Virus record (IMG/VR): IMGVR_UViG_3300045049_000120
Coordinates: 1 to 60,034 of that record
Source: a virus
Length of the DNA stretch: 60,034 nt
Strand: one strand, 5' to 3'
In this document: piece by piece, positions 1-15,212 of the stretch
Layout of the letters: every line of letters begins with the position of its first letter
How positions within the stretch are numbered: the stretch's first letter is position 1
Translations under genes and position numbers: made by a program
Notes under the pieces: generated by a model
Databases searched by the model: none
The model's input: only the letters and a program-made list of their open reading frames with translations
What the model was told of the DNA's origin: nothing

Positions 1-688
1 TGCCTGGGATGCGCGAGAATGGGAATGTCGCATTCCCTGCGTCATACCATACCTCTGTAGTTCGCTCGCCAATTAGCCAAAGCTCGCGTTTGTCCTCGAT
101 CATCGTCACGAGCTGATCAGTGGCGACATCCTTTAGCGCAAAATAGGTGGCATCGAGCGGGGCGGTGCCATTCCAATACAGCGGAGAAGTGTAGAACGTC
201 TGTGATCCTGGCTTGTTGAATACCAGCCAGCCATCGATAAAAGCGACTCGGCTAGAGCCAAGCCATGCTTCATCAACGATTTGCTTCACAGTCTTGGCCG
301 CTAGATTCACCACATACCCATTCGGACCATCGACAATGACTGCAATGCCACCCGCACCATTGTCCCGAATGCATACTGGGCCATTGGTGGATGCGATCGT
401 GCCGATCAAGGCTGCGCTGATAGCACCAAGCGATGGAGAGGTTATCCAATATACATTGCTACCGGATACGACAATAGCAGCCGCCCCACCTGGGAGGGGC
501 CATCCTCCACGGACCGGACCCGTCCCCAATACAGCCAGAGATAGCAGCCCAGGCGTGCCAAGTAGCGCGATCGGCTCTTTGCTATTGGCATGGCGCGAAA
601 TCTCCGGATACCAGTTAACCAGTTTCTGCATGTCCTGCAGCGGCATGGGCGCCTCATAAGCCCCGCCGACGAACGGAAAGAGACTCAT
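1..688 (-). CDS. P22 gp10-like tail/DNA-stabilisation protein (partial)
   Basis: The frame stays open from the ATG at 688 to the left edge, so only about 229 N-terminal residues are seen. The N-terminus (MSLFPFVGG... then MPLQDMQKLVNWYPE) and the following beta-rich, Gly-rich sequence match what I know of the P22 gp10 packaged-DNA stabilisation (tail hub) family, which plugs the portal vertex after DNA packaging. Its place just downstream of a gp4-like gene in a P22-type order (portal, scaffold, coat, gp4, gp10) supports this. The family call is by recognition and gene order, not by search. Confidence 0.8.
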   Translation of the reverse strand, partial: MSLFPFVGGAYEAPMPLQDMQKLVNWYPEISRHANSKEPIALLGTPGLLSLAVLGTGPVRGGWPLPGGAAAIVVSGSNVYWITSPSLGAISAALIGTIASTNGPVCIRDNGAGGIAVIVDGPNGYVVNLAAKTVKQIVDEAWLGSSRVAFIDGWLVFNKPGSQTFYTSPLYWNGTAPLDATYFALKDVATDQLVTMIEDKRELWLIGERTTEVWYDAGNATFPFSRIPG

Positions 689-697
689 GGTTATCCC

Positions 698-1645: not shown

Positions 1646-1651
1646 GGTCTA

Positions 1652-1879
1652 TTACTCCGTTTTCGCCTGACCAGCCTTCTTGTTCGCTGCGGAAACATCA
1701 TTTTGGCCGATAAAATCATAGGGCTCGGCACTCCATCCCTCGGTAAGCGCGGCTTGTTCTTCGTCGGGGGATGCCACAACCCTAGATCCGAAAGTGCCAG
1801 ACATCAGGACGGCCTTTACTGTCTCGGCATCGGGATATAGCGAAGGCGCGCGATATAGCATCTTCGGATAATTACTCAT
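1652..1879 (-). CDS. Small conserved-type late protein, unknown function
   Basis: This 75-residue acidic protein begins MSNYPKMLYRAP and contains a GW(S)AEPYD-like segment. Similar short proteins are common between coat and gp4 genes of P22-like phages, but I cannot assign a role. It is preceded by a hairpin at 1896-1915 (CCAGGGGC, four-base loop, GCCCCTGG) that lacks a T-run and may protect mRNA rather than terminate it. Confidence 0.6.
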   Translation of the reverse strand: MSNYPKMLYRAPSLYPDAETVKAVLMSGTFGSRVVASPDEEQAALTEGWSAEPYDFIGQNDVSAANKKAGQAKTE

Positions 1880-1918
1880 GGGACATTCCTCATGACCAGG
1901 GGCCGAAGCCCCTGGCGG

Positions 1919-2317
1919 TTAGAACGAGTTCAGATAGCCACTGCCTGCGGCAATGCTTTCATTCGGCTGCGGACGCGCCACCAAGAAGGTATACGAGCCT
2001 GCATTCGGAGTGATCGGAGAAGCAGTGAGATTGCCAAAAACGATGGTGATCTTATCCGGCGTAGTGGTATCCGCAACTGCATCTACGATGATCAGGCCAG
2101 CCTGAAAGGCACCAGGCGACGACAGCCAAAGCAGTTGATCGCCGGGCTGAGTGCCCAGGCCAACAGCAGTGAAGGACTGCTGCGCCGTTGTATTGGCCGC
2201 CACACTTGCAGGAGTAATACTGGCCGTCTGAAGCGATGCCAGCTTCTGGATATTGCCGACAGGGGACTGCGGTACGGGGTTTGCGGAAATCGCTGGTCCC
2301 GGATTGGTATTCGACAT
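1919..2317 (-). CDS. Probable head decoration or accessory virion protein
   Basis: This 132-residue protein has no obvious membrane or enzymatic motif. It is rich in Ala, Thr, Pro and Gly, with alternating hydrophobic residues suggesting a beta-sandwich. It sits directly downstream of the coat gene, where capsid-decorating proteins are often found. The role is inferred from position only. Confidence 0.5.
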   Translation of the reverse strand: MSNTNPGPAISANPVPQSPVGNIQKLASLQTASITPASVAANTTAQQSFTAVGLGTQPGDQLLWLSSPGAFQAGLIIVDAVADTTTPDKITIVFGNLTASPITPNAGSYTFLVARPQPNESIAAGSGYLNSF

Positions 2318-2334
2318 TGTCGATTCTCCTGGAA

Positions 2335-2362
2335 GAGAAAAAGGCCGCGCGAAAGCGGCCTT
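2335..2362 (-). terminator. Terminator-like hairpin after coat gene
   Basis: Reading the minus strand, AAGGCCGC and GCGGCCTT form an 8-bp stem followed by TTTTTCTC. It lies just past the coat stop and probably attenuates transcription so that coat is made in excess over downstream genes. Confidence 0.7.
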
Positions 2363-2370
2363 AAAATGGG

Positions 2371-3687
2371 TTAACCGGCGATACGGCAGGCCAGTTCACG
2401 ATACAACGATGCCCAGCCATAGAGCACATCCATACGGGTAGGAATAGCATCGTTGTTGATGGTGTACTGGCGCACTACACGGATGCTCAGGCCGGTTTGT
2501 TTGTCTGCGGCACGTCCGGCAAAATGCACACCATCCGGCAATTCCAGATCAGCCGTTGCCAGGGTGAAGGCATCGCGGTGGAAGGCCATCGACTGCGGGC
2601 TATAGGTATTGGCTGAACCGAATACGGTGATGGCAGCATTGTTCACTGGGGCTGCGCTCACGTTCTGGAACTGGCCTGCGCTAATGATTGCCGGAGCAAT
2701 CGTCAGCTGCAGATTGCCAGAGCCGTCCGAAGTGTATTGACCGCCTACAACTTGGCCGAACGAATTGGTGATGGCAGTGAATGTGCCGTTCGACGGCGTA
2801 CCCACCGGCGGACGAACCACGAATTGACGCAGCTGATTGGAACCCCACTGTGCACGGTTCTGCGGGTTCACCGCATATACGCCGGCAATCGTGATTACGT
2901 CACCCACATTCACTACGTTGGTAGAGGCAGTCCACCCAGTGGTATACAGCGTGCCGCTATCGGACCAGCCAGACGTCAGCAATGCAGACGAAGTGCCGCC
3001 CGTTCCGAATTTCGGAGAGCCACCCTGGGCGCCCACGCTGTACGAGTTGACGTTCTGGTCCTGATACCAGTCGAAGCCGAGGGTATCACGGCCAAGCAGC
3101 CCCTTTTTATACATCTCGCCGATAGTGGCCTGCGGATTGAACAGTCCTTTCAGCGCATCCGCCATACTGATCATGCTGAACGGATCCAGCACAATGCAGC
3201 GTTCACCACCGTCCGGCGCGGCCTCCGAGTCCAAGACAGCTTTGGCCGTCAGTGCAGTCAGGGCAGCTGTTGGCTTGGTGCCAGGCGTGCCCACCGCATT
3301 GGCGGTATTCTGATAGGCGAATTGCAGGCCATCATAGTCGATTTTGTTGGCGATGGCAGCCACAGCTGGTTTCAGCAAGCGGCGGCTGAAATCGTCCATG
3401 GATAGCAAGAGATCAGCCGTACTGAATTGGGTATCGACGTGAAATTGCGTGGTCAGCGTAACAGGCACGCTGGATTCCACGAAATCCTCCACATTCAGCG
3501 CCGGACCTACGGTGCCTTTGAAGCGCGCCGGCTTGCGGACGTTCACGGTATAGCCGATCTTTGCACCGGGGATGGCGAACTTGTCGTCATATTCCTTCTT
3601 CACCTTGTCGGTGAACACGCATTCGTTTTCCAGCACCATCAACGCTTCGTTGGTGATGTCAGAAATGGTGAGTAGGTTGTTGGCCAT
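2371..3687 (-). CDS. Major coat protein, P22 gp5-like
   Basis: This 438-residue protein begins MANNLLTISDITNEALMVLE and continues with a KIGYTVNVRKPARF segment. Both are typical of the P22-type coat family (HK97 fold with an inserted I-domain), the shell subunit of the procapsid. Length agrees with P22 gp5 (430). A Gly/Ser/Thr-rich stretch around residues 205-300 probably corresponds to the inserted surface domain. It follows the scaffold gene after a terminator-like hairpin, as in other P22-like phages. Confidence 0.88.
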   Translation of the reverse strand: MANNLLTISDITNEALMVLENECVFTDKVKKEYDDKFAIPGAKIGYTVNVRKPARFKGTVGPALNVEDFVESSVPVTLTTQFHVDTQFSTADLLLSMDDFSRRLLKPAVAAIANKIDYDGLQFAYQNTANAVGTPGTKPTAALTALTAKAVLDSEAAPDGGERCIVLDPFSMISMADALKGLFNPQATIGEMYKKGLLGRDTLGFDWYQDQNVNSYSVGAQGGSPKFGTGGTSSALLTSGWSDSGTLYTTGWTASTNVVNVGDVITIAGVYAVNPQNRAQWGSNQLRQFVVRPPVGTPSNGTFTAITNSFGQVVGGQYTSDGSGNLQLTIAPAIISAGQFQNVSAAPVNNAAITVFGSANTYSPQSMAFHRDAFTLATADLELPDGVHFAGRAADKQTGLSIRVVRQYTINNDAIPTRMDVLYGWASLYRELACRIAG

Positions 3688-3702
3688 TTAGGCTCTCCAG
3701 AA

Positions 3703-3730
3703 ACGACAAAACCCCGCGCAAAGCGGGGTT
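3703..3730 (-). terminator. Hairpin between scaffold and coat genes
   Basis: On the minus strand AACCCCGC and GCGGGGTT pair and are followed by TTGTCGTTT. It lies between the scaffold stop and coat start, so it is more likely a partial terminator or processing site than a full stop. Confidence 0.6.
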
Positions 3731-3753
3731 CATCTGAGGGATAGGCTTTTGCG

Positions 3754-4662
3754 CTATCGCCGGCGCTGCGCCGCCTGCTGGGCGGCACGGTGCGCTTTAT
3801 ATTCCTGATACGTCATCTGGCTAGTTGGCTTTTCCACTGGCGTACTGGCGTTTTTCAGGGGATCGATTGGCGGTGGCGCTTTCGATGTTTCAGGTTGTTT
3901 GGCAGCTGGTTGAACTGATTGCTGATTTGGCTTTTGCACTGGCGCAGCCATGGCATCCTCAAGGCGCCCGAGCATCTTCAATGCCTCTGTTGGACTCATC
4001 GCCATCAGCTTGCGCGCCTCTTCCGGATGTTGAGCAAAGTGATAGGCCAATTGCGGGCCATAATCGCTCTCCACCACTGCGGCAAAGAGGTGATTCGGCA
4101 GCTCAATGGACGAATTGCCAACGACTTCATCGAAGTCGGTCAGATCCGCTTTGGCCGCCTCCAGTCTGCGCTGCCAGTTGTCAGCAAGTTGCCGCTGGGC
4201 TGCCTGCACGTTTGCTGTCTCTTGCTCCTGCTCGCGCTCCTTGATGCGCTGATCAACTTTCCAGTCTGTCAGTGCTTCCTGGTAGTCGGCATCGCTCACA
4301 AATTGCGAGCGTTCTGGCCTTGGATCATCTTTCGCCGGTTGCACATTGGGCTGGGCGTGCAGCCGTTGCCGCACTTCTTCCAGTTCGGCCTGGAGTTGGG
4401 CAACACGCGCATTAGCATCGCTTTCGCGTGCGCGCGCCTCATTGCGCTCATGGCGGGTTTTGATGAGTTCCTCTACCAGCGGCTTGCGCGGTTTATGCTG
4501 GCTGTTTTGTTGCTGTTCGGCGATCTGTGTTTCAGCCAGTGGATTGCCATCGTCACCGGTATTTTCAGGCGAGGCTTGCGTTTCGGCCGGGGGTTTCTGC
4601 GTATCGCCTATCAGTTGGGCCATCAGGGTTTCAGAGGTAACAACAGTGCGTGATTCAGACAT
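3754..4662 (-). CDS. Scaffolding protein
   Basis: About 302 residues, highly charged and Gln/Glu/Ala-rich, with a predicted coiled coil from about residue 65 to 170 and a basic C-terminus ending AQQAAQRRR. P22-type scaffolding proteins have a similar length (303) and a basic C-terminal coat-binding helix. I chose the ATG that begins MSESRTVV over one seven codons earlier. It lies between portal and coat as expected. It directs procapsid assembly and is then released. Confidence 0.8.
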   Translation of the reverse strand: MSESRTVVTSETLMAQLIGDTQKPPAETQASPENTGDDGNPLAETQIAEQQQNSQHKPRKPLVEELIKTRHERNEARARESDANARVAQLQAELEEVRQRLHAQPNVQPAKDDPRPERSQFVSDADYQEALTDWKVDQRIKEREQEQETANVQAAQRQLADNWQRRLEAAKADLTDFDEVVGNSSIELPNHLFAAVVESDYGPQLAYHFAQHPEEARKLMAMSPTEALKMLGRLEDAMAAPVQKPNQQSVQPAAKQPETSKAPPPIDPLKNASTPVEKPTSQMTYQEYKAHRAAQQAAQRRR

Positions 4663-4760
4663 GGATAACTCCACGAGGCCCACATATGAAAACGCCCAGC
4701 GCGGCTGTGGGCACCGGGCTAGGCAGGGTATTTCTATAAGGTTCAGCTATTCAGCCGTAT

Positions 4761-6791
4761 TCAATGGGTTGCTTCATTGTCTATCCTGCCCTGCGCCTTG
4801 GCCGCCTCTTTCTGCAGATCCAAGTGTGCCAGGATCAAGGCAATCTGATCTTGCATGTGCTGGACTGTCACGGCGGTCGCATCTCGACTCTCAACGTCAT
4901 GACGCTTCGTCATGTCCTGCATTTCAGTGCGACGGTCCTGGCCTTCCTGTTTCACCTGCTCGACGCTTAGTCGATATTTCTGGTCCAGCGTGAGCTGCTG
5001 AACTTGTTGTCCAAGCTGCTGATTCTGCGCCTGCAGCTGTGCAATCAAAGATTTTGCTTCTTCTGGAATATTATCCGGAAGATTTTGCGCCGCCTGAGCA
5101 ATCGGATTGGCTGCAGCAAGTCGATCGGCGATGAGGTCTGCGCCCGGCCAATCGAACTGGCGGAACACAATATCATCCGCAATTGCGGAAACCCTCTCTC
5201 CCAGAGGAGTGGCCAGCATCTGCAGCATATGGTCCGCGGCGTCCTGGCGCTTGGTTTGATAGCCAGGCCCCGTATCGATCACCACATCGTATTCACCCAC
5301 CGTTACATCATTCAGAACTGCAGCAATGGCACCAGCTTCATCGAGCTGTTTCTGATTGATCGTCATGCTGGATGGAACACCGTCCTCGCCGATGATACGA
5401 ATCGTACGCTCGGTATCGTAGTAATGCGGGATGAGGTCCAGAATGATCTTGCCGGTGTGGCGAATCGATCGACACAGATTGTCATAGAAGTGGAAGTTGG
5501 ACATATCCGACTGCCGCTGGCGACGCTGCACCATTACGCCGGATGTTTCCTGGCCCGCTGCGCCGAGCGCTGGGTCGAACATCCCAGCCACGGCTTTCAT
5601 ATCCTCGCTGGCCCCCATGGCGGCATTGATCTGCGCTGCCGGCATGCCCTGGGGTTCTAGCCTCTGCGGGGGTGGGACCGGTGTACCGTCTTGAACGGTC
5701 GGCTTATAGGGCAAATACGCATAGGATTTCTGGTTAGCAGCATTCCAGACATCCTCATAGCCTTCTATCTGCTCTTCAGCCACCAGCCATGGCGCTTTAG
5801 GTGCAAGCGCAACTACCTCAGTTTCTGCAGAACGCCAGAAATTATACATGCGCTGAGGATCCTGCAGCGCGCGTACCATACCATAACGGATTACTTTCCC
5901 CTCTAGCTCATATTCAGCGCCATAGACAGGAACGACTGGAATCCAACGCCCAGGCCATTCTCGCGTTTCAAGCACTTCCAGCGCGGTCATCTTGTACCAC
6001 ATAACACGACGCCTGGTGCTATTGCGCTCATGGGCAACGGAAATCCCTGCGGCTTTCAGGGCGGCCATATCTATCTGTGATTTGTAGCGAACTTGGCCAT
6101 TGCTGAGCATGCACAATACATCTGCCGTATGCTCAACCTTCCAATACTCGGCAATTCGTATTTCATCTTGCCGTGCCCACACATGCAGGTCATCACCACT
6201 GCCGAGCGCGCGGAAGTCTACCCATTGAGCACGCGGGTATTTGCGCTCGAACTGCTTCTTGGTCACGAGATCGGTAATGATGCACCACTCAGCATCACTG
6301 CCGTCCGGCGCAGTGCTATTCGGATCCATATAGACCGTGAACGGATTGCGCACACGGTCTATGTACAGTTCCTGATCAAAGCTATCCTCGCGCACATAAC
6401 GCGACGCGACACGCCAATAGCCCCAACCCATTCGTACTTGGAAGTCGGCGCCAGTATCGTAGGCGGTATCTGCATTGCTGTTGACCTGGATATGCCTCAT
6501 CAATCCGGCAATGACCTTTGCCTTTTCCTTATCTGCGCCATCAGCTACTGGGTGAACGGAAATGCGTGGCCGCTGCTCCCGCATATTGTTCACAGCTTGG
6601 CGCACAAAGCTATCGGTTTTGTTGATGGTCAAACATGGGCGATGCTCAAGCTCTCTGGCAGTCTGAATAAAAGCCGGCCACTGATCGCCAGCAGCAAACT
6701 TCAGATCAAGGAGCGCCTCTGCACGGTTCTGCGACTCAGCCTCTACCGCGATCTTAAGCGCCTCCTGGCATTCCCTGATGATCGCGCTCAT
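4761..6791 (-). CDS. Portal protein, P22 gp1-like
   Basis: 676 residues from the ATG one base after the terminase stop (start MSAIIRECQEALK). The size and text (AAGDQWPAF; NKTDSFVRQAVNNMREQRPRI) fit the large P22-type portal family. The family forms the dodecameric DNA channel and the terminase dock. The C-terminus from about residue 580 is Gln-rich helical coiled coil (QLQAQNQQLGQQVQQL), matching the long helical barrel of P22 portals. Spacing to the terminase gene implies translational coupling. Confidence 0.88.
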   Translation of the reverse strand: MSAIIRECQEALKIAVEAESQNRAEALLDLKFAAGDQWPAFIQTARELEHRPCLTINKTDSFVRQAVNNMREQRPRISVHPVADGADKEKAKVIAGLMRHIQVNSNADTAYDTGADFQVRMGWGYWRVASRYVREDSFDQELYIDRVRNPFTVYMDPNSTAPDGSDAEWCIITDLVTKKQFERKYPRAQWVDFRALGSGDDLHVWARQDEIRIAEYWKVEHTADVLCMLSNGQVRYKSQIDMAALKAAGISVAHERNSTRRRVMWYKMTALEVLETREWPGRWIPVVPVYGAEYELEGKVIRYGMVRALQDPQRMYNFWRSAETEVVALAPKAPWLVAEEQIEGYEDVWNAANQKSYAYLPYKPTVQDGTPVPPPQRLEPQGMPAAQINAAMGASEDMKAVAGMFDPALGAAGQETSGVMVQRRQRQSDMSNFHFYDNLCRSIRHTGKIILDLIPHYYDTERTIRIIGEDGVPSSMTINQKQLDEAGAIAAVLNDVTVGEYDVVIDTGPGYQTKRQDAADHMLQMLATPLGERVSAIADDIVFRQFDWPGADLIADRLAAANPIAQAAQNLPDNIPEEAKSLIAQLQAQNQQLGQQVQQLTLDQKYRLSVEQVKQEGQDRRTEMQDMTKRHDVESRDATAVTVQHMQDQIALILAHLDLQKEAAKAQGRIDNEATH

Positions 6792-6792
6792 A

Positions 6793-8037
6793 TTATCCCA
6801 TCCATCCACCCGGTCCAGTTGGCACCACAATGCGGCGCCGTGGCTCGGCCGTGACTATGTTTCGCTTGATCGCGCGTCTCGCCCCTTCGCAGGCATAGCG
6901 CAATGCATCGATCACATGGTTGTTCTTATCTTCCAAGAGCGGCACGACCTGCCCAGTCAGCGGATCCGTTTTATAGCTGTAAAGCGTCAATTCATCGATC
7001 GTATGCTTGCAGCGTGGATGCACGATGATATCGAAGCTCTTCAGGAACTCAATGCCTTCTTCTAGGCTCTTTGATCCCTTGATGGCCGCTGTAATACGCG
7101 GAAACCCATGCTTCTGCATATGGCTGATAGTCTCAGGCCTTGCGCTATCAGCCGTAATTGGCCATCTCTCTGCCTCGGGCACGCTCATGAACAACTCGGG
7201 GAGGTTAACAATCTCGCAACCGACCTGATACGCCTCATAGTCGATATAAAGCGCATTACCTTCGATGCTGCAACGGATGAGAACCGAAGGATCCACCGAA
7301 AACCCCCAGTCCGCCCCGAGCCGGAAAATCGTTCCCGCAGGCCGCTCGAATTCTTCTATACGCCAGTTTCTGAATACCCGAGCTTCGCTGTTTCGCTGAT
7401 ATTCACCAAGCCAGATATGCGCATATTTGTCGGGGTCTCGACGCCGGTCGTACTCCATTTCGTCAACCAGCGTGGTTTCGTTGAACCACGGATTGTCAAA
7501 ATAGTTGGCCTCAACCACTACTGCGCCTGGCGGCAATTCCTCGCCACGGAGCAGGACATCTACAGGATCAGTTGGCTTTGATGGATTCCAGGAAAACCAT
7601 AACTCCGAACCAGGCTTACGAATCGTCGGACGAAGCATATCCAGGGAGCGCTGGCTAAGCGTTTGCGCCTCTTCCACCCACGCCCTGTCAAACCCCTCGA
7701 GGGATTTAATCGACTCCGCAGTATGGTTCTGCATGCCCTGGAAAATGATCAGGCCGCCATGAATGCTCTTTATCTTCGCGTCCTGCACTTCGAAGTAATA
7801 TCCTGCATTCAGTTTCTCGATTTTATGCTCTAGCAGCTTCTTCACTGACTGATCAAGCGACTTCTGATTTTCACGAATGCAGACTGCATCTATCTTCGAA
7901 GTAGCGGATTCCTCGATCAATAACTCGCCGAAGAAATGCGATTTTCCCGAACCACGGCCGCCTCGAGCCCCTTTATATCGCGCAGGTTCGAGCAAAGGCA
8001 CGAACACGCGCGGAGTGAGGATTTCGAGGCTTTGCAT
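6793..8037 (-). CDS. Terminase large subunit (packaging ATPase/nuclease)
   Basis: 414 residues. A Walker A motif is visible at residues 26-33 (GGRGSGKS) and a Walker B-like AWVEEA at about 119-124, followed by an Arg-rich segment of the ATPase domain. The C-terminal half has RLGADWGFSVDPSV, the first acidic cluster of the RNase H-like headful nuclease. It drives DNA into the procapsid together with the small subunit encoded immediately upstream. Length is slightly short of P22 gp2 (499) but complete for the PBSX/Terminase_3 type. Confidence 0.88.
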   Translation of the reverse strand: MQSLEILTPRVFVPLLEPARYKGARGGRGSGKSHFFGELLIEESATSKIDAVCIRENQKSLDQSVKKLLEHKIEKLNAGYYFEVQDAKIKSIHGGLIIFQGMQNHTAESIKSLEGFDRAWVEEAQTLSQRSLDMLRPTIRKPGSELWFSWNPSKPTDPVDVLLRGEELPPGAVVVEANYFDNPWFNETTLVDEMEYDRRRDPDKYAHIWLGEYQRNSEARVFRNWRIEEFERPAGTIFRLGADWGFSVDPSVLIRCSIEGNALYIDYEAYQVGCEIVNLPELFMSVPEAERWPITADSARPETISHMQKHGFPRITAAIKGSKSLEEGIEFLKSFDIIVHPRCKHTIDELTLYSYKTDPLTGQVVPLLEDKNNHVIDALRYACEGARRAIKRNIVTAEPRRRIVVPTGPGGWMG

Positions 8038-8038
8038 A

Positions 8039-8470
8039 TCAAGTCTTCGGGTCGATCACTCTGCGAGTAATGGTCTCAATCTTGCCGGAGTGATTTACCT
8101 CGGCTTCTACTTTGTCACGCCATTTTGCCGACTGACGGTTCTTGAGCCAGAATATTGCAGCCGTGGTATCGGGGGGGTAATGCTTAACCAGCGGTGTCTC
8201 GACTATCGCGCCATCAATCACGCGAATATCTACATCCGGATGCTCGTATCCTGTGGCGCGCTTGAACAGCTTGTCAGCCACTTCAGCGTCGGCCAAATCC
8301 TTGCCATTCCTTATGGACTCAAGAAATTCAGGATATGCTGTTTTCCAATTGTTGATCGTCTGCTCGGATACCCCGAAGAAATCGGCGAGTTCTTTGTCAG
8401 TTGCACCAAGGCGGCACAGCTTACGCGCCTGCTCGGCAAAGACATCGCAGTACTTAGGCGGCCTGCTCAT
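8039..8470 (-). CDS. Terminase small subunit
   Basis: 143 residues from the ATG starting MSRPPKYCDVFAEQ. Residues about 20-45 (GATDKELADFFGVSEQTINNWK) form a helix-turn-helix typical of small terminase subunits that recognise the packaging site. The C-terminal AIFWLKNRQSAKWRDK is a family hallmark. The start lies inside the preceding gene, consistent with coupled translation. Confidence 0.85.
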   Translation of the reverse strand: MSRPPKYCDVFAEQARKLCRLGATDKELADFFGVSEQTINNWKTAYPEFLESIRNGKDLADAEVADKLFKRATGYEHPDVDIRVIDGAIVETPLVKHYPPDTTAAIFWLKNRQSAKWRDKVEAEVNHSGKIETITRRVIDPKT

Positions 8471-8777
8471 TTTCAAACACCCAACAGACATCCGCTTCTT
8501 GCATGATCAAGTAACGCTGTCCGTCCTCGTAATGCTCTCGATAGTCAAATTCGCCGAATGCGATTCGATCGCCAACTTTCACATCCAGGGGAATACGCTT
8601 CCCAGCCTTGTTCAGCTTCCCTGGGCCAACAGCCATGACAGCACCCGTGCGCCCAAGATGCTCTTGGCTCGAAGCGAGTAGCGATTCTCGGGTCTTCACG
8701 ATTAGCCCGGCAGCCGTGATGTCATCGCGATAGGCATCAGGAAGCACCGCAATGCGGTCTTCAGTTGGCTGAATCAT
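8454..8777 (-). CDS. Phage GroES-like co-chaperonin
   Basis: This 107-residue protein has the Cpn10 pattern along its whole length: IQPTEDRIAVLP at the N-terminus, GLIV, a mobile-loop region around residues 25-42, GAVMAVGPG, PLDVKVGDRIAFGE and LIMQEADVCWVFE. It probably caps the host GroEL to fold the coat protein, as T4 gp31 does for T4. The mobile loop (KTRESLLASSQEHLG) is longer than in bacterial GroES. It lies between the terminase small subunit and two small late genes, overlapping both neighbours. Confidence 0.82.
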   Translation of the reverse strand: MIQPTEDRIAVLPDAYRDDITAAGLIVKTRESLLASSQEHLGRTGAVMAVGPGKLNKAGKRIPLDVKVGDRIAFGEFDYREHYEDGQRYLIMQEADVCWVFENEQAA

Positions 8778-8926
8778 TTGCGGATTTCTTTCTTCTTTGG
8801 GCGCTTGACGTTGTAAGCAATCGCAATCGCCTGCTTAAGGGGCATCCCAGGATGGGCGTTCTTCTCGGTCCGGATATTCTGGCTGATCGCTTGCTTGCTT
8901 AGGCTGCTCAATAGCGGCACGGTCAT
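8774..8926 (-). CDS. 50-residue basic late protein
   Basis: Start ATG at 8926, stop TGA overlapping the GroES-like start (ATGA). Sequence has AISQNIRTE, then PLKQAIAIAYNVKR and a Lys-rich tail. The pattern (x)QAIAIAY-V is one I recognise from a recurrent family of short phage proteins of unknown function. Tight overlaps on both sides support it being translated. Confidence 0.6.
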   Translation of the reverse strand: MTVPLLSSLSKQAISQNIRTEKNAHPGMPLKQAIAIAYNVKRPKKKEIRK

Positions 8927-9144
8927 TTCCTTTCGGTCTCAAAGCGCACCGCTTTGATCAGGTTCTCCATTCCCGCAACAAGCTGCCTTTCTGCTTCGGA
9001 GAGGGCTATTTCGGCATCTGGGCATGGCTCACCACTGCGCCTGCGCATTTCCAAGCGGCGCCTAGTGTAATCCAGCAAAACGGCTACATCGCCGCATGTT
9101 TCTTCTGTCTCCCGTTCCCAGCGTGTCTTGTCATTCGCGGCCAT
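8923..9144 (-). CDS. Small hypothetical, first gene of late operon A
   Basis: 73 residues from the ATG at 9144 (MAANDKTRWERETEETCGD). Charged and mostly helical, with no recognised domain. It is the first gene after the late promoter and terminator of prophage A and overlaps the next gene by four bases. Confidence 0.55.
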   Translation of the reverse strand: MAANDKTRWERETEETCGDVAVLLDYTRRRLEMRRRSGEPCPDAEIALSEAERQLVAGMENLIKAVRFETERK

Positions 9145-9154
9145 TCTGACCTCG

Positions 9155-9185
9155 CAAAAAACAAAACCCGTCACATGGACGGGTT
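9155..9185 (-). terminator. tR'-like terminator of late leader A
   Basis: Minus strand: AACCCGT, seven-base loop, ACGGGTT, then TTGTTTTTT. It stands about 70-100 nt downstream of the predicted late transcription start and before the first late gene, where lambda-type phages place the terminator that Q overrides. Confidence 0.75.
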
Positions 9186-9222
9186 CAATACAGGATGGGG
9201 AGACTACACCAGAATGACAAAC

Positions 9223-9250
9223 AGCCCATACGCTGGACGCAATATGGGCT
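9223..9250 (-). promoter_or_regulatory. Conserved hairpin at start of late transcript A
   Basis: An 8-bp stem (AGCCCATA with TATGGGCT) encloses a 12-base loop containing CTGGACG on the plus strand (CGTCCAG in the RNA). It begins within about 10 nt of the predicted start of the late transcript. Prophage B has the same loop at the same place with a different but fully paired stem (51,441-51,468), so the pairing is conserved. Likely a Q-dependent pause or antitermination element. Confidence 0.65.
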
Positions 9251-9260
9251 GCTGCAAATA

Positions 9261-9289
9261 ATGGTAGTTTGGCCGGATTAGGATGTCAA
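9261..9289 (-). promoter_or_regulatory. Late promoter pR' of prophage A
   Basis: Minus strand TTGACA (9,289-9,284), 17-bp spacer, TACCAT (9,266-9,261). It sits immediately after the Q stop codon and reads into the late genes. The same -10 TACCAT and spacing occur after the Q gene of prophage B. Confidence 0.75.
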
Positions 9290-9293
9290 GGAA

Positions 9294-9794
9294 TTAGGCT
9301 GTAAGCCTTTCCCGATGGGCGTTTCGGGCAGAATAAAAAATCAGCAAATCCAAAACCTGAACTTCGATGGTAGCAAGACCTGAATTGAAGCGCGAATCCA
9401 ACGTTTTCTTGGCATGCCCCCAGTAATCGGTGATGGTCTGACGACTCCGGCAAAACATCTCGGCAATTTCGGCATGCGTATGCTCCAGCCCATCGCGCGC
9501 CCAGCCTCGTGCCATCATCCGGCGCAGCTTCACATCAGGCCACGGCAGCACTTTGGCAGCCTCGTTGATGGCGCGGATGTCGCCAGTATAGAACGCGGCA
9601 ATCGCGCTATATTCGCCAGGCGGTAGACGTGCGATCTTCGCCAGGATATCGGTAGCCATTTGCTTTTTCTCATCGGGGCGCAAGTCAGATATGCAACCCG
9701 GGACTTCCTGCCCAAACCTCTGAATCTTGACTGGAATTGCTTCTGACATTTGAAATGCCCATCCGACAAGGCCACGCACCGTGGAAAATTGCAT
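9294..9794 (-). CDS. Q-like late gene regulator (antiterminator), prophage A
   Basis: 166 residues, starting MQFSTVRGLVGWAFQMSEAIPVK. A C-terminal helix-turn-helix is visible around residues 108-130 (HAEIAEMFCRSRQTITDYWGH). A homologue lies in the same place in prophage B (51,488-52,018) with the same N-terminus and HTH region but diverged middle. Position between the replication/resolvase genes and a late promoter with an early hairpin and terminator is that of lambda Q-type antiterminators. The mechanism is inferred from context. Confidence 0.7.
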   Translation of the reverse strand: MQFSTVRGLVGWAFQMSEAIPVKIQRFGQEVPGCISDLRPDEKKQMATDILAKIARLPPGEYSAIAAFYTGDIRAINEAAKVLPWPDVKLRRMMARGWARDGLEHTHAEIAEMFCRSRQTITDYWGHAKKTLDSRFNSGLATIEVQVLDLLIFYSARNAHRERLTA

Positions 9795-9830
9795 ATGTCA
9801 CCCCCTGTTTTTCTTATGCCGCGGTATTGC

Positions 9831-10211
9831 TCAAAACTCCTCGACGGCCCAGCCGCCACCGTATTTCTTGGCGAGCACTTTTACCGCAACGATGCGGAAC
9901 GGGAACATGTCGGCCGCAATCTTGATTTTGGCGCGCGCATCGTCCTGCCAGAACCCCTTGACCTCATGGAGCTCGATCTCATTGTTGCTGAGCATTACGA
10001 CAAAGTCCGGGCTGTAGAACGTATTGGCAGCCAGACGAAGTTTGACCCCCTCAAATTTGAACCAGGCCACTTCTCCGGCTTGCTGCCGCTGCTGCAGGTG
10101 CCGGGCATAGGCCTCCTCGGTCCGATTCATCGTGCCAGTCTTGAGGCGCCCCAGCGCCTGCATTCCTAGCTTGGCGGACGAATTCTTGGGGCAGGCAGAT
10201 CCGTTTTGCAT
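9831..10211 (-). CDS. DUF1064-like phage nuclease/resolvase
   Basis: 126 residues from the ATG at 10,211, which overlaps the stop of the preceding small gene (TGATG). The core YSPDFVVML..NEIELHEVKGFW has the acidic D...E-x-K pattern of PD-(D/E)XK nucleases and matches the DUF1064 phage family. Prophage B has RusA in this exact slot, which suggests that this protein also processes branched replication or recombination intermediates. Confidence 0.75.
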   Translation of the reverse strand: MQNGSACPKNSSAKLGMQALGRLKTGTMNRTEEAYARHLQQRQQAGEVAWFKFEGVKLRLAANTFYSPDFVVMLSNNEIELHEVKGFWQDDARAKIKIAADMFPFRIVAVKVLAKKYGGGWAVEEF

Positions 10212-10312
10212 CACTCATCCTCTTCAGTCACGGGGGCGTTCTTGATTTCGTAAATAATCACCAGAATCCCGGCGATTAGCATTGCGATGCTGGCAATCTT
10301 GAACCAACTCAT
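10211..10312 (-). CDS. 33-residue single-span membrane peptide
   Basis: ATG at 10,312, TGA at 10,213-10,211 overlapping the next start. Translation MSWFKIASIAMLIAGILVIIY then EIKNAPVTEEDE: one clear transmembrane helix at residues 4-21 followed by a short acidic tail. Its start overlaps the stop of the P-like gene, so it is in a coupled run of genes. Function unknown. Confidence 0.6.
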   Translation of the reverse strand: MSWFKIASIAMLIAGILVIIYEIKNAPVTEEDE

Positions 10313-10902
10313 TAGGCAGCCTCATCGATAGCGCCGGGGTAATTCGGCAAATACTTCCGCAAGCATTCCGGTACAGGCTGGCGCGCATCACGAATCGCCT
10401 CAGCCGCCATGCGGCAGCAGTGGGAACCGCTGCGATATACGCCCTGCTCGACTTGCCGCGCGATGGTATACGCCCATTCAACATTCGCGCGACCGACCGT
10501 GCCAGTTGTCTTCACGGCGCCACCCACTTCCGACAGCCGTATTTGCGCTTCCTCGCGGCTCATGCGCGGTGCGGCTAGCGCTTTGGCTTCGCTCGCCTTG
10601 AAATCCTCGTTAGTAGGGCGGTAGTCGCGATTGACACAGGCCTGGATGAATTCGTCCGAGCTGGGCGCACGGCGGAATTTGCTGTTTAGCCCGTGCTGGA
10701 TATCGGCCGTCGACAAGTCGCGCAACTCGTACGCCCATACGTCCATGGCTTCCAACAGGCCGGTATCCTTGCCTTCGTTCGGTTTTCCCTTCGGTACGAT
10801 CTCGCCCGATCGGTAGCGGTTGACGAACTCGCTGCCAAAGCGGCCACGAAGGGCGCGGAAAATGTTTTCTACAACTGCACGGCTAAGCGGGGAGTTGCTC
10901 AT
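10312..10902 (-). CDS. Replication protein P-like (helicase loader), prophage A
   Basis: 196 residues; the N-terminal half (VVENIFRALRGRFGSEFVNRY; GLLEAMDVWAYELRDLS) closely matches the protein in the same place in prophage B. It overlaps the end of the O-like gene, as lambda P follows O, and its size and helix-rich composition fit a helicase-recruiting P protein. The C-terminal half (MSREEAQIRLSEVGGAVK... RKYLPNYPG) is also shared with B. The loader role is inferred from gene order and resemblance to P-type proteins. Confidence 0.7.
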   Translation of the reverse strand: MSNSPLSRAVVENIFRALRGRFGSEFVNRYRSGEIVPKGKPNEGKDTGLLEAMDVWAYELRDLSTADIQHGLNSKFRRAPSSDEFIQACVNRDYRPTNEDFKASEAKALAAPRMSREEAQIRLSEVGGAVKTTGTVGRANVEWAYTIARQVEQGVYRSGSHCCRMAAEAIRDARQPVPECLRKYLPNYPGAIDEAA

Positions 10903-11854
10903 AGTCGCCTCCGTCTTCAGGGTTCAGGTAGTGCGATCCAACGCTCAGCGTGTTTGCGGCAGCGCGGCGCTGTTCGTCGTAGTCAGGGAAAGACCGAGAT
11001 GTTCCGGGAGAACCGCGGTTACGGTCGGCGTTGATCTGCATAGCGTCGAGCAGCCATTTGCGGAATTGCGCTTGCCAGGCTCGCACGTCGTCACGTCGAG
11101 AACCGGCAGCCTGGTGGTGGGCAATGAACTTGGCGCATTCGATGTCCAGATCCAGGCCGAACTGGCTGGCATGCATGCGTGCGGTGCGGCAGGGCTGGAA
11201 GTCCCCGGGGACAGGGACACCGCCGCGTCCCCACGCGTACGTGTCACCCACTACGGAAGACACGCTAGTGTCTGTAGTAGTGGTTATATCTATATCCCTG
11301 TCCCTTGGAGTGCGTTTCCCGGGGGACTCAGGCGGGACATCGTCTTGCTGTCCCTGAGACATTTTCGGGATGTCCCCGGGGACATTTGCCGTGTGTCCCT
11401 CAGGACAATCCAGAGACATCCACTCTTCGAACGTGGGGGGGTTGTACGGTTGCTTGTGCCGCTGGCACTGCTTCTTGAGGCGTGCGCACTCGGTCGCCCA
11501 GCGTTGCTTGAGCTTGGCGCGCCAAGCCTCGTTTGCCTTCTCGGCTACCACCGGGTGATACAGGCGGCCGTCGCTGCACTTAATCCAGCCGCGCAGGGCG
11601 CCGGAACGCACCTTGAGCCATTCCTTGATGACACGGCCGTAGCCGGCCAGGCGTGCGAGCACCGTGTCGTCGTCGGGCAGGCTGGCGGCTGGCACCTGGT
11701 GCCAGCTGGCGCACCACAGCAGGATGCCGGCCCGGAATTCATCACCATCCGAGAGCGCGGCGAAATCGCTATCACGCAGACGGACAACGTCCATCGGCAT
11801 GAACGCGAAGTCGCGCAGGTCGCAGTCTGGATGGGTAAGAGGAGAGGTGCTCAT
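10883..11854 (-). CDS. DUF1376-type replication initiator (lambda O analogue), prophage A
   Basis: 323 residues from the ATG starting MSTSPLTHPDCDLRDFAF. The N-terminal domain (MDVVRLRDSDFAALSDGDEFRAG, then a winged-helix-like segment to about residue 115) is DUF1376, often found in phage initiators. A central low-complexity linker (about residues 140-200) is encoded by the iteron region, and a C-terminal helical part (QAQFRKWLLDAMQI) follows. Lambda O has the same plan: DNA-binding N-terminus, origin inside the gene, and a P-interacting C-terminus. Confidence 0.75.
   Translation of the reverse strand: MSTSPLTHPDCDLRDFAFMPMDVVRLRDSDFAALSDGDEFRAGILLWCASWHQVPAASLPDDDTVLARLAGYGRVIKEWLKVRSGALRGWIKCSDGRLYHPVVAEKANEAWRAKLKQRWATECARLKKQCQRHKQPYNPPTFEEWMSLDCPEGHTANVPGDIPKMSQGQQDDVPPESPGKRTPRDRDIDITTTTDTSVSSVVGDTYAWGRGGVPVPGDFQPCRTARMHASQFGLDLDIECAKFIAHHQAAGSRRDDVRAWQAQFRKWLLDAMQINADRNRGSPGTSRSFPDYDEQRRAAANTLSVGSHYLNPEDGGDYEQLPA
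11201..11418. other. Predicted replication origin with iterons, prophage A
   Basis: Three near-palindromes of the form TGTCCC-nn-GGGACA stand at 11,349-11,361, 11,371-11,384 (perfect, TGTCCCCGGGGACA) and 11,394-11,407, about 22-23 bp apart (two helical turns). A further copy lies at 11,201-11,213 and half-sites flank the array. Between them are an AT-rich run (11,283-11,295) and an inverted repeat GACAC-GCTA-GTGTC (11,259-11,272). The block sits inside the O-like gene, as in lambda, and is almost unchanged at nucleotide level in prophage B. Confidence 0.75.
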
Positions 11855-11976
11855 GCGCAATGCCCTTGAAAAGCACTATCCGCGAAGCGCAGACAGCGCC
11901 TCCATAAATATGAACTTTGAATAAATCGCACTGCCAAACAGCCTTGGGAACTGCCATGCCTGCGCCTTGGGCGCAT

Positions 11977-12000
11977 TAAAAAACGGCGCTTTCACGCCGC
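11977..12000 (-). terminator. tR1-like terminator after cII, prophage A
   Basis: Minus strand GGCG-TGAAAG-CGCC followed by GTTTTTTAAT. It overlaps the last codons of cII and precedes O, where lambda has tR1. The roughly 120 bases from here to the O start hold no other feature I can see. Confidence 0.6.
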
Positions 12001-12297
12001 GATCCTCACTGAATTGCCGCCGCATTCCCCCTTACCACTACGGGCGCACCGGCATCCGGCACCAACCTGGCAGAGGTAGGCCAGCGAATCTAGATACTGT
12101 GGCGATACCGCGACGAAACCGACTGCTGCAATCGCCGCATCCAGCTTGTCCTCGGTAATTCCCATCTGGCCGGAAAGAAATCGGCTTACCTGACTGCCAT
12201 CCCAGCCCAGCAAATCCATGACCCGGGCCTTATCCCGTGGATCAGAGAGTGCGCTGCGCAAGGCCCGCGCCAGTGAAGGTGCCACAAGGCTGTCCAT
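11992..12297 (-). CDS. CII-like transcription activator, prophage A
   Basis: 101 residues. A helix-turn-helix with the signature LLGWDGSQVSRFLSGQMGI lies at residues 28-46, the hallmark of phage CII proteins that activate integrase and repressor promoters. The C-terminus carries CQVGAGCRCARSGKGECGG, a Cys-rich tail shared with the prophage B protein. The gene lies between Cro and the O-like gene, exactly where lambda has cII. Confidence 0.85.
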   Translation of the reverse strand: MDSLVAPSLARALRSALSDPRDKARVMDLLGWDGSQVSRFLSGQMGITEDKLDAAIAAVGFVAVSPQYLDSLAYLCQVGAGCRCARSGKGECGGNSVRIAA

Positions 12298-12369
12298 CGT
12301 TCATTCCCTTTCAAAAAATGTTGAATGCGCTTGCATTCGTGATGCTGGAAAGTGGGCCAAGCCGGATCT

Positions 12370-12633
12370 TCAGTGCCGCGTGTCGACGCCGGCATCCGAC
12401 TTGTGCACGCCCTGGCCGAGCTCGGGCCAGAAGCGTTGCCAGTCGTCTGGGCGCAGTTCTTGGCGGGTGACGGCACGCTCGGACTCGCGCTCGATAGCAA
12501 CGCATATGTCAGCGCCCAGGAACTGGCCTGTGCTTAATGCCTTGCGCAAGTAACCGAGCGACGTGCCGCAGCGCGATGCGAAATCGTGCTGACGGAGAGG
12601 GGGTAGCCCGTTCAGGTAGGTTCGAAGGTCCAT
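12370..12633 (-). CDS. Cro-type regulator (YdaS-like HTH), prophage A
   Basis: 87 residues; start ATG with GAGGAAG seven bases upstream. The N-terminus (LPPLRQHDFASRCGTSLGYLRKALS) is a helix-turn-helix of the YdaS/Cro type. It is transcribed divergently from cI from a promoter overlapped by CI operators, so it is the first gene of the rightward early operon and the presumed Cro. It shows no clear similarity to the Cro of prophage B, in line with different immunity. Confidence 0.72.
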   Translation of the reverse strand: MDLRTYLNGLPPLRQHDFASRCGTSLGYLRKALSTGQFLGADICVAIERESERAVTRQELRPDDWQRFWPELGQGVHKSDAGVDTRH

Positions 12634-12660
12634 GAGACTTCCTCATTGGCAGATATTTGA

Positions 12661-12720
12661 ACATTACCAAACGGTAAAGCATAAATCAATACCAAACGGT
12701 GTTTTACCTAATGGTATATA
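12661..12720. promoter_or_regulatory. Immunity operator region and cro promoter, prophage A
   Basis: Three 12-bp sites TACC(A/T)AA(C/T)GGT(A/G) lie at 12,665-12,676, 12,690-12,701 and 12,705-12,716. The cro promoter on the minus strand has TTGATT (12,689-12,684), a 17-bp spacer and TAATGT (12,666-12,661), so the first site overlaps its -10. The third site is followed by TATATA and lies about 20 bp before the cI start, allowing repression or autoregulation of cI. The same motif recurs at the early plus-strand promoter (13,932-13,967). Confidence 0.82.
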
Positions 12721-12737
12721 TCTGAGATTCTTGCGAG

Positions 12738-13460
12738 ATGGATATCGTGCAGAACAGAAGAGCGCGCCTACGCGCTTGGATAGATCAACATTGCAACGGC
12801 AGTCAGGCTCAGTTCGTCGAGATGACAGGCATCAACCAGGGCGAACTTTCTGGCCTATTAAGAACAAAATCATTTGGAGAGAAGAAGGCTAGATCGCTTG
12901 AAGTTTCGGCTGGTATGCCCGTAGGCTGGCTTGATCAGGTCGCGCCCGAAGAAGTTTCGAGGAAAGCAGGTGACCTTGGGCCGGCTGTTGAAACTCCGAT
13001 GCGCCCGGTGGTGGTGGTCGAGACACAGGACGACATCCAGCACGATGTTTTCGAAGTGCCACGCTATACGCTGAAGGCATCAGCGGGGCATGGGGCTCCG
13101 ATGTTAGAAGTAGACACGAAGGGCACTCCAAATTATTGCCGCGGCGGCTGGGCCAAACAAAACGGCTACCGCAGGGAAGACCTGTTCAGCATTGTGGCCG
13201 TGGGCGACAGCATGGAGCCAACAATCCCTGACGGCGCCAGCCTAATCGTGCACCGACAGCAACATATCGTGAATGGCAAGGTGCACGTCATCTGCAAGGG
13301 CAACGAGTGCTATGTGAAGCGCCTGTTCAAGCAGATGGATGGCTCGGTGTTGGTGCACTCGGATAACCAGGCAGTCTACAAGGATGTGATTGTACAGCCG
13401 GATGACCCGGAGGTGCTGCATGTGGTCGGGGTAGTGGTTTCAGTGAGCTTCAACCTGTAG
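12738..13460 (+). CDS. cI: CI repressor, S24/LexA-type, prophage A
   Basis: 240 residues. The N-terminal domain (residues 1-65) holds a helix-turn-helix (QAQFVEMTGINQGELSGLL). The C-terminal domain is a self-cleaving S24 peptidase: likely cleavage bond Ala116-Gly117 (KASAG), nucleophile Ser158 (VGDSMEP) and general base Lys194 (CYVKRLF). RecA-stimulated cleavage should induce the phage. From residue 79 onward I count 13 differences in 162 positions against the prophage B repressor, while the N-terminal domains are not alignable. Confidence 0.92.
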   Translation: MDIVQNRRARLRAWIDQHCNGSQAQFVEMTGINQGELSGLLRTKSFGEKKARSLEVSAGMPVGWLDQVAPEEVSRKAGDLGPAVETPMRPVVVVETQDDIQHDVFEVPRYTLKASAGHGAPMLEVDTKGTPNYCRGGWAKQNGYRREDLFSIVAVGDSMEPTIPDGASLIVHRQQHIVNGKVHVICKGNECYVKRLFKQMDGSVLVHSDNQAVYKDVIVQPDDPEVLHVVGVVVSVSFNL

Positions 13461-13462
13461 CC

Positions 13463-13783
13463 ATGAGGCTATCGATTGCGAGGATGAAACGCTTGAACAA
13501 GATGATGTTCTTCATGATGCTGTCGCTTGCGTTGCCGGCCGCCAATAGTTATGCAGAATGCGTTGCTGGGACTAAGAGCAAGACGACCTTTCGAGTGATC
13601 GATGGGCACAATATCCTCCTCTCTGGAGGTTATGGCCCGGAAATATTTATCAAGACATTCGATTATTTTAACCAGTACTCCAGAGTCGAGATTCTTATGG
13701 ACAGTTTCTGTGACTATCAAACAGGAGTCCTCTATATCGATGGGCGCATCGTGAACGTAAACGAAGTCAAAGTACTTCGATAG
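13463..13783 (+). CDS. Small exported protein co-transcribed with cI (moron)
   Basis: 106 residues from the ATG two bases after the cI stop; an internal ATG at 13,484 would also give a signal peptide. Residues about 8-31 (MKRLNKMMFFMMLSLALPA then NSYA) form a secretion signal with a likely cut after Ala. The mature part of about 75 residues has two Cys residues that could form a disulphide. It has no recognised domain. Being cotranscribed with the repressor it should be made in the lysogen and act in the periplasm. Lower GC than neighbours hints at separate acquisition. Confidence 0.65.
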   Translation: MRLSIARMKRLNKMMFFMMLSLALPAANSYAECVAGTKSKTTFRVIDGHNILLSGGYGPEIFIKTFDYFNQYSRVEILMDSFCDYQTGVLYIDGRIVNVNEVKVLR

Positions 13784-13814
13784 CATCCGCGCTCCACCAC
13801 TCACAATCATACAA

Positions 13815-13840
13815 GCCGCCTGCATAGGCGGTTTTTGTTG
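13815..13840 (+). terminator. Terminator after cI operon, prophage A
   Basis: CCGCC-TGCATA-GGCGG followed by TTTTTGTT. It ends the repressor operon before the early plus-strand promoter. Confidence 0.85.
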
Positions 13841-13931
13841 TCTGCAGCTTCGCTGCGCCACTCCTAAATGAAACTCGTCGATCTCATCAAGGCTAATCGT
13901 TGCAAAAATGAGGAAAACTTACCAAGAAAAT

Positions 13932-13971
13932 TACTAAATGGTATTGACTTTCGAATACCGTTTGGTAATAC
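13932..13971 (+). promoter_or_regulatory. CI-controlled early promoter (pL equivalent), prophage A
   Basis: TTGACT (13,944-13,949), 16-bp spacer, TAATAC (13,966-13,971). Two CI operator sites overlap it: TACTAAATGGTA at 13,932-13,943 just before the -35, and TACCGTTTGGTA (the inverse of the main motif) at 13,956-13,967 in the spacer and -10. It should drive the structured RNA and the recombination/integration operon and be shut in the lysogen. Confidence 0.8.
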
Positions 13972-13977
13972 TTGGTT

Positions 13978-14440
13978 CAACAGCAGCGAACACCGCCGCA
14001 TCGATCCTTAACAAGCCGTAGCACTACGGAACCCGCCCAGCCGAGAAGAGGGCGGCACCACGGTACACACGACCGGATGCGCGATGCAGGAGGCACGAGG
14101 CTAACCCTGCATCGGTGGCAAGGGCCTTAACGCAGGATGGGGTGTGTGGCGGGGTGAGAAAGAATTTCAAGCAGAAACCCATTAGGGCGTGACGGGAAAC
14201 GGGGCCCACCGGTGCATAAGGCAGAAGGATGCGTGAAACGCGTAGACGCCGAACCCCGCAATGCAGGCTGTGAGAGACCAGAAGCTAACAAGACACGACA
14301 GGATGCCGGCAGGGACAGCGGATACCTAGGTTGAGATCTGCTTGTGACACCACGGAAAGACGTGGGGAGCAGGCCTTCGCAAGAGGGCCGGCACCAAAGG
14401 CGCGTGACAGGTGGCCTTTGGTGTTACCCAACACTCAACC
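13978..14440 (+). ncRNA. Large structured phage RNA, copy 1
   Basis: A run of about 460 bases without a credible reading frame starts at the predicted early transcript start. Complementary segments: 14,033-14,038/14,050-14,055; 14,083-14,090/14,106-14,113 (8 bp); long-range 14,149-14,155/14,253-14,259 (7 bp); 14,231-14,234/14,238-14,241; a closing helix 14,329-14,335/14,434-14,440 enclosing 14,338-14,342/14,368-14,372, 14,350-14,354/14,361-14,365, a helix with a GCAA tetraloop (14,373-14,378/14,383-14,388) and a 9-bp stem 14,393-14,401/14,414-14,422. Positions 14,003-14,191 recur in prophage B with 2 mismatches and no gaps. I do not recognise it as any named RNA class. End points are estimates. 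Confidence 0.75.
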
Positions 14441-14462
14441 ATATCCCCCTGGAGGTAAAGCC

Positions 14463-14765
14463 ATGATCACCAAGACCAAGCAGAACTGGACTGTGGGCGC
14501 CACCGTCAAGGTCGGTTTTCTGTCCCTTGTTGTGAAAGCTTCCGTCGCCACGCCGGGCGATTACCTCCCGGACGCCTACATCCTGGCAAATCAGGCCGGC
14601 ACCCAGTTGTATCGCTTCGTCCCGCATAACGGGCTGGAGAAGATCAGTGTGGACGAGGCGCGCGAGATGCTGGCCAAGGCTGAGCATTACGCAGCGCAGG
14701 TAGCTGCGAAAGCAATCGCCAAGGCTGCGGCCGTGCGCGAGATCGATGCAGTGTTTGCCGCCTGA
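14463..14765 (+). CDS. First protein of early operon A, unknown function
   Basis: 100 residues, ATG preceded by GGAGGTAAAGCC. The N-terminal half is compact and hydrophobic (VGATVKVGFLSLVVKAS... TPGDYLPDAYILANQ, FVPHNGLEKI) and the C-terminal half is an Ala-rich helix. It is the first gene after the structured RNA, so it is translated from that leader. I do not recognise the family; position suggests an early take-over or regulatory role. Confidence 0.65.
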   Translation: MITKTKQNWTVGATVKVGFLSLVVKASVATPGDYLPDAYILANQAGTQLYRFVPHNGLEKISVDEAREMLAKAEHYAAQVAAKAIAKAAAVREIDAVFAA

Positions 14766-14767
14766 TC

Positions 14768-15212
14768 TGCGCCGCTTCTCACGAGGCGGCATCGTCAAGC
14801 ACCCAGCGCGAGCAAGCGCGGTACCGGCGGCCTGAGCAATGCGCCTGGCCGAACGCCCGAATAGCTGCCGCTGGATGTTTGACGATGTAGAGCGGTATCC
14901 ACACAGAAGCGGCGGCGTGGAAAGTCGAAGACACGCTAGAGGGTCGGCTCGATAAATATGCCCGACCAGCAAAGGCAGGAAGGTGGCCGCAGACCTCTCT
15001 ACCTTGGGATGCCAAGGATGAAGTCGAAACACATCGCCGGAGTAGCGCCCGGCCCGCTTCTGTGTGGGATTCGCGGATGCCTCCACCGTCCAGGTGGTTC
15101 GGATCAAAACCTTCGGCGAGCCCACGCCAATTTTCCCCCGTAGTTCTCCTCGAGCTTGACCGCCGGTCGTTCACACCCCGGCCGGCGGCTCTTTTTTCTC
15201 GAAAGGACAGCC
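14768..15212. other. Unassigned 445-bp gap in early operon A
   Basis: No convincing gene is visible. A minus-strand frame ending at 14,779 has protein-like text only in its last 50 residues and no sensible start; I did not call it. On the plus strand there is an inverted repeat GGTCGG/CCGACC near 14,942-14,968 with an AT-rich loop, and a terminator at the far end. It may be untranslated leader, a decayed gene or more structured RNA. Confidence 0.4.
15160..15198 (+). terminator. Terminator inside early operon A
   Basis: CCGCCGG (15,160-15,166) pairs with CCGGCGG (15,182-15,188) and is followed by CTCTTTTTTC. It lies on the coding strand between the first early gene and the rest of the operon, so transcription beyond it needs antitermination or a second promoter. 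Confidence 0.7.

Follow-up and report, generated by a model that had tools for sequence, protein, structure and literature searches.

The stretch of DNA analysed here, hereafter the window, is the IMG/VR record IMGVR_UViG_3300045049_000120 at its full length of 60,034 bases. Positions 1-14 kb carry the P22-type portal, terminase, scaffold and head gene set of one phage, A, the terminase of which has Xanthomonas phage PBR31 as its best-matching phage (82%). Positions 29-57 kb carry the tail sheath, baseplate and other contractile-tail genes of a second phage, B, whose terminase is nearest to that of Xanthomonas phage Kintu (66%). The host of these temperate phages is probably a member of the Xanthomonadaceae. 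The features discussed below, including two putative structured RNAs termed RNA1 and RNA2, are as follows.

13,944-13,971, plus strand: early promoter of phage A, read from the sequence (TTGACT, 16 nt, TAATAC)
14,002-14,457, plus strand: RNA1, copy 1, a structured untranslated leader, delimited on the evidence of A/B identity and folding z-scores, with no open reading frame and no Rfam match
14,002-14,014, plus strand: boxA-like 13-mer CGATCCTTAACAA at the 5' edge of the shared block, from a sequence scan
14,056-14,156, plus strand: RNA1 5' domain, with a CACC/GGTG closing helix, UACACAC/GUGUGUG and the CGATGCAGG hairpin
14,304-14,457, plus strand: RNA1 extended 3' domain, with GCAA-tetraloop and 10-bp hairpins in the predicted fold
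14,463-14,765, plus strand: P0001, the first early gene (100 aa), characterized from 18 viral relatives, their alignment and AlphaFold2
14,766-15,198, plus strand: RNA2, a second structured untranslated region ending in a terminator, from folding z-scores
14,899-15,067, plus strand: conserved core of RNA2, from similarity and compensatory changes in another virus (locus L052)
15,158-15,197, plus strand: intrinsic terminator, a hairpin at 15,158-15,190 (-20.2 kcal/mol) followed by the T run CTTTTTTC
59,788-59,816, plus strand: early promoter of phage B, read from the sequence (TTGACA, 17 nt, TAAATT)
59,845-60,034, plus strand: the phage B copy of RNA1 (copy 2), truncated where the contig stops

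The first-pass annotation of this DNA had described an untranslated block present at two positions, and an alignment run backwards from the contig end confirmed it: 14,003-14,191 and 59,846-60,034 are identical at 187 of 189 positions, the only mismatches being 14,025 (T/G) and 14,064 (T/C). A further difference, 14,001 (T/C), lies just outside, and the 5' boundary of the identity is abrupt, at 14,002. Both copies of RNA1 lie directly 3' of sigma70-type early promoters and, as had been claimed, these promoters differ between the phages (TTGACT..TAATAC versus TTGACA..TAAATT), as do the DNA-binding parts of the repressors. The site in phage A was also recovered by a promoter scan, as TTGACT-17-AATACT, and that in phage B sits between the repeats AATTTAGCAAAGTAAATT and AATTTAGCAAACTAAATT. 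The repressors of A (12,738-13,460) and B (56,816-57,538) have near-identical S24 halves and unrelated DNA-binding halves, the pattern of a domain swap. The two phages also share 1.2 kb with a DUF1376 replication gene, 85% identical between 10,637-11,842 and 53,030-54,232.

The same annotation spoke of two prophages; that both lie in one chromosome was not confirmed. A second IMG/VR record, G001 (36,056 bases), repeats positions 1-14,152 of the window at 99.95% identity (14,152 bp) and carries on its other side phage A's own RecT, YqaJ and integrase genes, together with a holin and a tail spike; this early/integrase region matches the early operon of the window only in short patches, at 87-89%. 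The G001 contig ends within RNA1 (loci L003 and L028), exactly 127 nt past the A/B mismatch at 14,025, and the window itself ends exactly 127 nt past the mismatch at 14,064. A de Bruijn assembler at k = 127 yields contigs that stop one 127-k-mer into a shared stretch, although the IMG/VR record does not state which assembler was used. Because the contig ends lie 127 nt past the mismatches, the window is probably an assembly-graph join of two phages, and on these sequences A and B are most likely separate, co-occurring phages joined at their common RNA1 block rather than two prophages. We infer that the early operon of the window belongs with phage B and that its join to phage A may be an assembly artefact; alternatively, the window may represent a true recombinant or a tandem lysogen of A and B. 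At its start, G001 lies in a 27-bp tandem repeat array of the early region (L029:17,862-18,056). A contig from the same metagenome as G001 (L048, in G801), the sole additional one returned by an IMG/VR search for repressor relatives, represents a third phage related to these two. It matches B at 94% identity along 4.1 kb of the replication-repressor region, and the contig stops before the early promoter.

These joins bear on how the two copies of RNA1 can be read. Since both contigs end inside RNA1 and the join of A to the early operon may be artefactual, the 3' half of the element (14,192-14,457) is attested once and has no safe assignment to A or B. Likewise, because the contig end truncates the comparison and the sharing looks recent, the identity of 187 of 189 positions, judged from the sequences, reflects recent sharing and is no measure of constraint; the earlier view of the element as near-invariant under constraint is accordingly not sustained.

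RNA1 is taken to begin with the shared block and to extend as far as the Shine-Dalgarno sequence of the first gene, both limits being inferred. No open reading frame accounts for the element, in agreement with its initial description as untranslated. Whole RNA1 folds better than shuffled sequences (z -2.9 and -3.35), its 3' domain has a z-score of -3.9, and the extended 3' domain reaches -4.2, a value equalled by 0 of 200 shuffles, with a minimum-energy structure identical to the centroid; control folds of three coding stretches gave -0.4 to -1.5. Scores near -3, as for whole RNA1, suggest structure and are no proof of it. At least two domains are predicted. The helices listed previously are all present, namely CGATGCAGG/CCTGCATCG, CAAGCAGA/TCTGCTTG, GCGGGGT/ACCCCGC and GGTTGAG/CTCAACC, along with the GCAA tetraloop and a 10-bp helix, CACCAAAGGC/GCCTTTGGTG. 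The pairing of CAAGCAGA (14,168-14,175) with TCTGCTTG (14,337-14,344) is a candidate long-range helix that would link the 5' and 3' parts of RNA1, its eight pairs being by themselves unremarkable. In the predicted fold, most of the Shine-Dalgarno sequence GGAGGT (14,451-14,456) is base-paired within the extended 3' domain. Among the three A/B substitutions in total, the one at 14,064 keeps its pair with G14148 (U.G in A, C-G in B), that at 14,025 breaks a loop-closing pair and that at 14,001 is unpaired. The original interpretation is supported in so far as it has the early transcript begin with a large structured RNA that is not translated.

All copies of RNA1 found anywhere are near-identical, and no diverged homologue was recovered. 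Rfam 15 gave no match at gathering score and, up to E = 10, only sub-threshold chance matches, so that the statement that RNA1 is not GOLLD, ROOL, HEARO, OLE or a group I/II intron holds at Rfam level. A blastn comparison with phage, plasmid and E. coli sequences gave no homologue, only scattered matches of 25-30 nt at E up to 10. Four exact RNA1 patterns searched across IMG/VR led to the G001 contig only, in a type of scan that misses diverged copies; pattern matches in L004, L005, L030 and L031 were inspected and judged to be chance. The four matches to an RNA1 17-mer in 84,980 species genomes were all chance as well. A blastn search of about 1,190 genomes (398 from the phylum of G018, and 397 and 392 from two families), a set of little depth in the Xanthomonadaceae, returned no homologue and a single 20-nt match judged to be chance, and a model of the 5' domain run over the collected loci found the known copies only.

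The product of the gene that follows RNA1, P0001, is predicted to combine a small beta-barrel and a C-terminal helix (AlphaFold2 pLDDT 80) and by inspection is not arginine-rich. A fold search gave weak matches, among them EF-P and eIF5A through their SH3-like barrels, and no match had E < 0.2; no confident relative was found by sequence or by fold. The same first early gene occurs at 18 IMG/VR loci (L006-L023), and in none of the 18 did reading and searching the upstream sequence reveal RNA1. At most of them an early promoter is followed by a short leader, and at some a small gene intervenes. Xanthomonas phage PBR31 has the order seen here, repressor (cI), terminator, promoter and early gene, but with a short leader. 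These short leaders resemble RNA1 in that an early promoter heads the early operon, with P0001 also present at L006-L023, and differ in usually lacking the 440-nt element. At one of these loci, L011, a GC-rich and apparently untranslated stretch (5,460-5,690) follows the P0001 relative; it is unrelated in sequence to RNA2 and is perhaps another RNA.

The terminator reported downstream proved to be a good match to an intrinsic terminator in its hairpin and T run, 0.7 kb beyond RNA1. From the T run to the next early gene, at 15,213, for which no relatives were found, the gap is about 15 nt. As this leaves almost no room for a promoter, the genes beyond 15,197, among them those for RecT, a YqaJ-type recombinase and an integrase, need read-through, barring an unseen promoter. 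A comparable terminator in the first kilobase is absent from 14 of 15 P0001 relatives without RNA1, in which the next gene often starts within about 25 nt, a distribution that fits antitermination in cis.

Between P0001 and this terminator lies RNA2. Folded with the terminator (14,766-15,210) it has a z-score of -4.1; when the terminator is left out the score is -2.9, and the fold contains a long-range helix of 14 bp that was equalled in 0 of 100 shuffles. Its core is laid out as a closing helix (14,899-14,912/15,054-15,067) that encloses H3, H1, the conserved block GGCAGGAAGGTGGCC..CAGACC, H2 and H4; the conserved blocks of RNA2 are GGCAGGAAGGTGGCC and GAAGTCGAAACACATCGCCGG. An IMG/VR scan revealed a relative in another virus, L052 (709-870), at 74% over 151 columns (E 6e-21). 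Between the window and L052 there are 11 pair-keeping double changes in three RNA2 helices (5, 6 and 6 pairs counted), a tally from two sequences only, with the register set by hand from flanking identical blocks. The inner part of the closing helix keeps 5 of 5 pairs with three double changes and its outer part is partly kept (6 of 8 pairs counted), while the hairpins at 14,942-14,947/14,962-14,967 and 15,002-15,007/15,012-15,017 each keep 6 of 6 pairs with four double changes; two more hairpins are unchanged. L052 too ends, by its sequence, in a terminator-like hairpin, and its own minimum-energy fold is no better than those of shuffles. By inspection there is no conserved reading frame in the core between the window and L052. 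RNA2 has no Rfam match at gathering score and only chance matches at E up to 10, blastn gave none in phages and plasmids, and an RNA2 model found none in 258 genomes of one class; 17-mer matches in L053 and L054 fall in ssb-like coding sequence. This comparison makes it very probable that RNA2 is a genuine structured RNA that has been conserved. Of the two RNAs it is the better-supported discovery, with compensatory changes between two viruses, a line of evidence that the near-identical copies of RNA1 do not offer.

Antitermination by an RNA has a precedent in phage HK022, whose put RNAs promote protein-independent terminator read-through in a manner that depends on the zinc-binding domain of the beta' subunit. 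The put RNAs are about 70 nt long and form two stem-loops, with putL just downstream of the early promoter and putR about 270 nt down (PMC9378689). Like them, RNA1 is untranslated, near an early promoter and upstream of a terminator, with no dedicated N protein recognised; unlike them, it is about 440 nt long with several domains, and nothing beyond position links it to put. The boxA/nut sites of lambda-type and rRNA antitermination also have a possible counterpart in RNA1, the boxA-like CGATCCTTAACAA. This site (GATCCTTAACA) departs at two positions from the gamma-proteobacterial consensus GYTCTTTAANA (PMC5725501), and four boxA-like matches of similar quality occur elsewhere in the window, so that the motif speaks at most weakly for antitermination. 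On non-systematic inspection, neither a boxB nor an N-like protein was recognised. GOLLD, ROOL, OLE, HEARO and the group I/II introns are, like RNA1, large structured RNAs, several of them associated with phages or mobile elements; neither with these nor with riboswitches does RNA1 share an Rfam 15 match.

We tentatively place first the possibility that RNA1 is a cis-acting leader of the early operon that helps RNA polymerase past the terminator at 15,158-15,197. RNA1 would act in cis, as a structured leader with which the early transcripts of two temperate phages begin; during transcription it would modify or stay with RNA polymerase, as put RNA does in HK022 on the scale of a much smaller molecule, so that the polymerase passes the terminator, and its partner would be RNA2, which bears the terminator and at which the decision on passage would fall. 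This reading is placed first mainly because the operon has two additions compared with the relatives, RNA1 and the terminator-bearing RNA2, a combination with the terminator that is a single observation (n = 1). Also counted in its favour are the position of RNA1 after the promoter in both phages and a folding signal that is absent from neighbouring coding stretches; counted against it, RNA1 has near-identical copies as its sole homologues found, and some other antiterminator protein may act instead. The role in cis is more certain than the antitermination step, which is plausible and was among the suggestions of the first-pass annotation. The paired Shine-Dalgarno sequence also suits translational control, and a close rival, rather unlikely as it stands, is a translational riboregulator in which the 3' domain hides the Shine-Dalgarno sequence of P0001 until a ligand, a protein or the folding pathway opens it and so sets P0001 output. 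The well-defined fold of 14,304-14,457, which takes in most of GGAGGT, argues for such a switch, but minimum-energy folds often show Shine-Dalgarno sequences as paired when these are G-rich, a short plain leader suffices for P0001 expression in most relatives, and the 5' domain would be left unexplained. The terminator thus favours antitermination in cis and the Shine-Dalgarno pairing favours translational control.

Roles in trans have been suspected for GOLLD-type RNAs, as have particle-associated ones, and RNA1, with or without RNA2, might similarly accumulate in processed form and act on host or phage targets. The large, multi-domain fold of RNA1 would suit this, as would the terminator of RNA2 and its structured relative in another virus; RNA1, however, lacks its own terminator and continues directly into P0001, and Rfam holds no known large RNA that matches it, which leaves this explanation improbable. 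It is also improbable, and slightly more so, that RNA1 has no special function and is an ordinary GC-rich 5' leader recently exchanged by recombination between the two phages. Near-identical copies only, an identity derived from recent sharing and z-scores near -3 that are suggestive rather than conclusive would all be expected on this account, but a length of 440 nt far exceeds the short leaders of most relatives, and the score of the 3' domain also speaks against it. Least probable, and indeed very doubtful, is that the leader harbours an insertion, either mobile or self-splicing: this would explain identical copies in two phages, their absence from relatives and the abrupt boundary at 14,002, yet there is no match to a group I/II intron, HEARO or any other Rfam family even at E = 10, no terminal repeats or endonuclease gene were seen, and the identity is accounted for if co-infecting phages shared an entire early module.

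Beyond the phages themselves, the locus offers a lesson about assembly, in that sequence common to co-occurring phages can mimic tandem prophages and make identity pass for constraint. At its most far-reaching, and improbably on present evidence, the first 1.2 kb of the early transcript would be a new kind of RNA switch in which RNA1 and RNA2, two large and mutually unrelated structured RNAs, flank P0001, the gene for a predicted small beta-barrel protein, and jointly gate the entry of RNA polymerase into the early operon, with RNA2 founding a new phage RNA family. RNA2 is a concrete candidate for such a family, since it is absent from Rfam and a second virus provides covariation in its favour. 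To our knowledge, very few protein-independent RNAs that let RNA polymerase pass terminators have been described, and those are small; a 440-nt leader for terminator passage, or a 440-nt riboregulator in temperate phages, would, if true, widen that class of RNAs.
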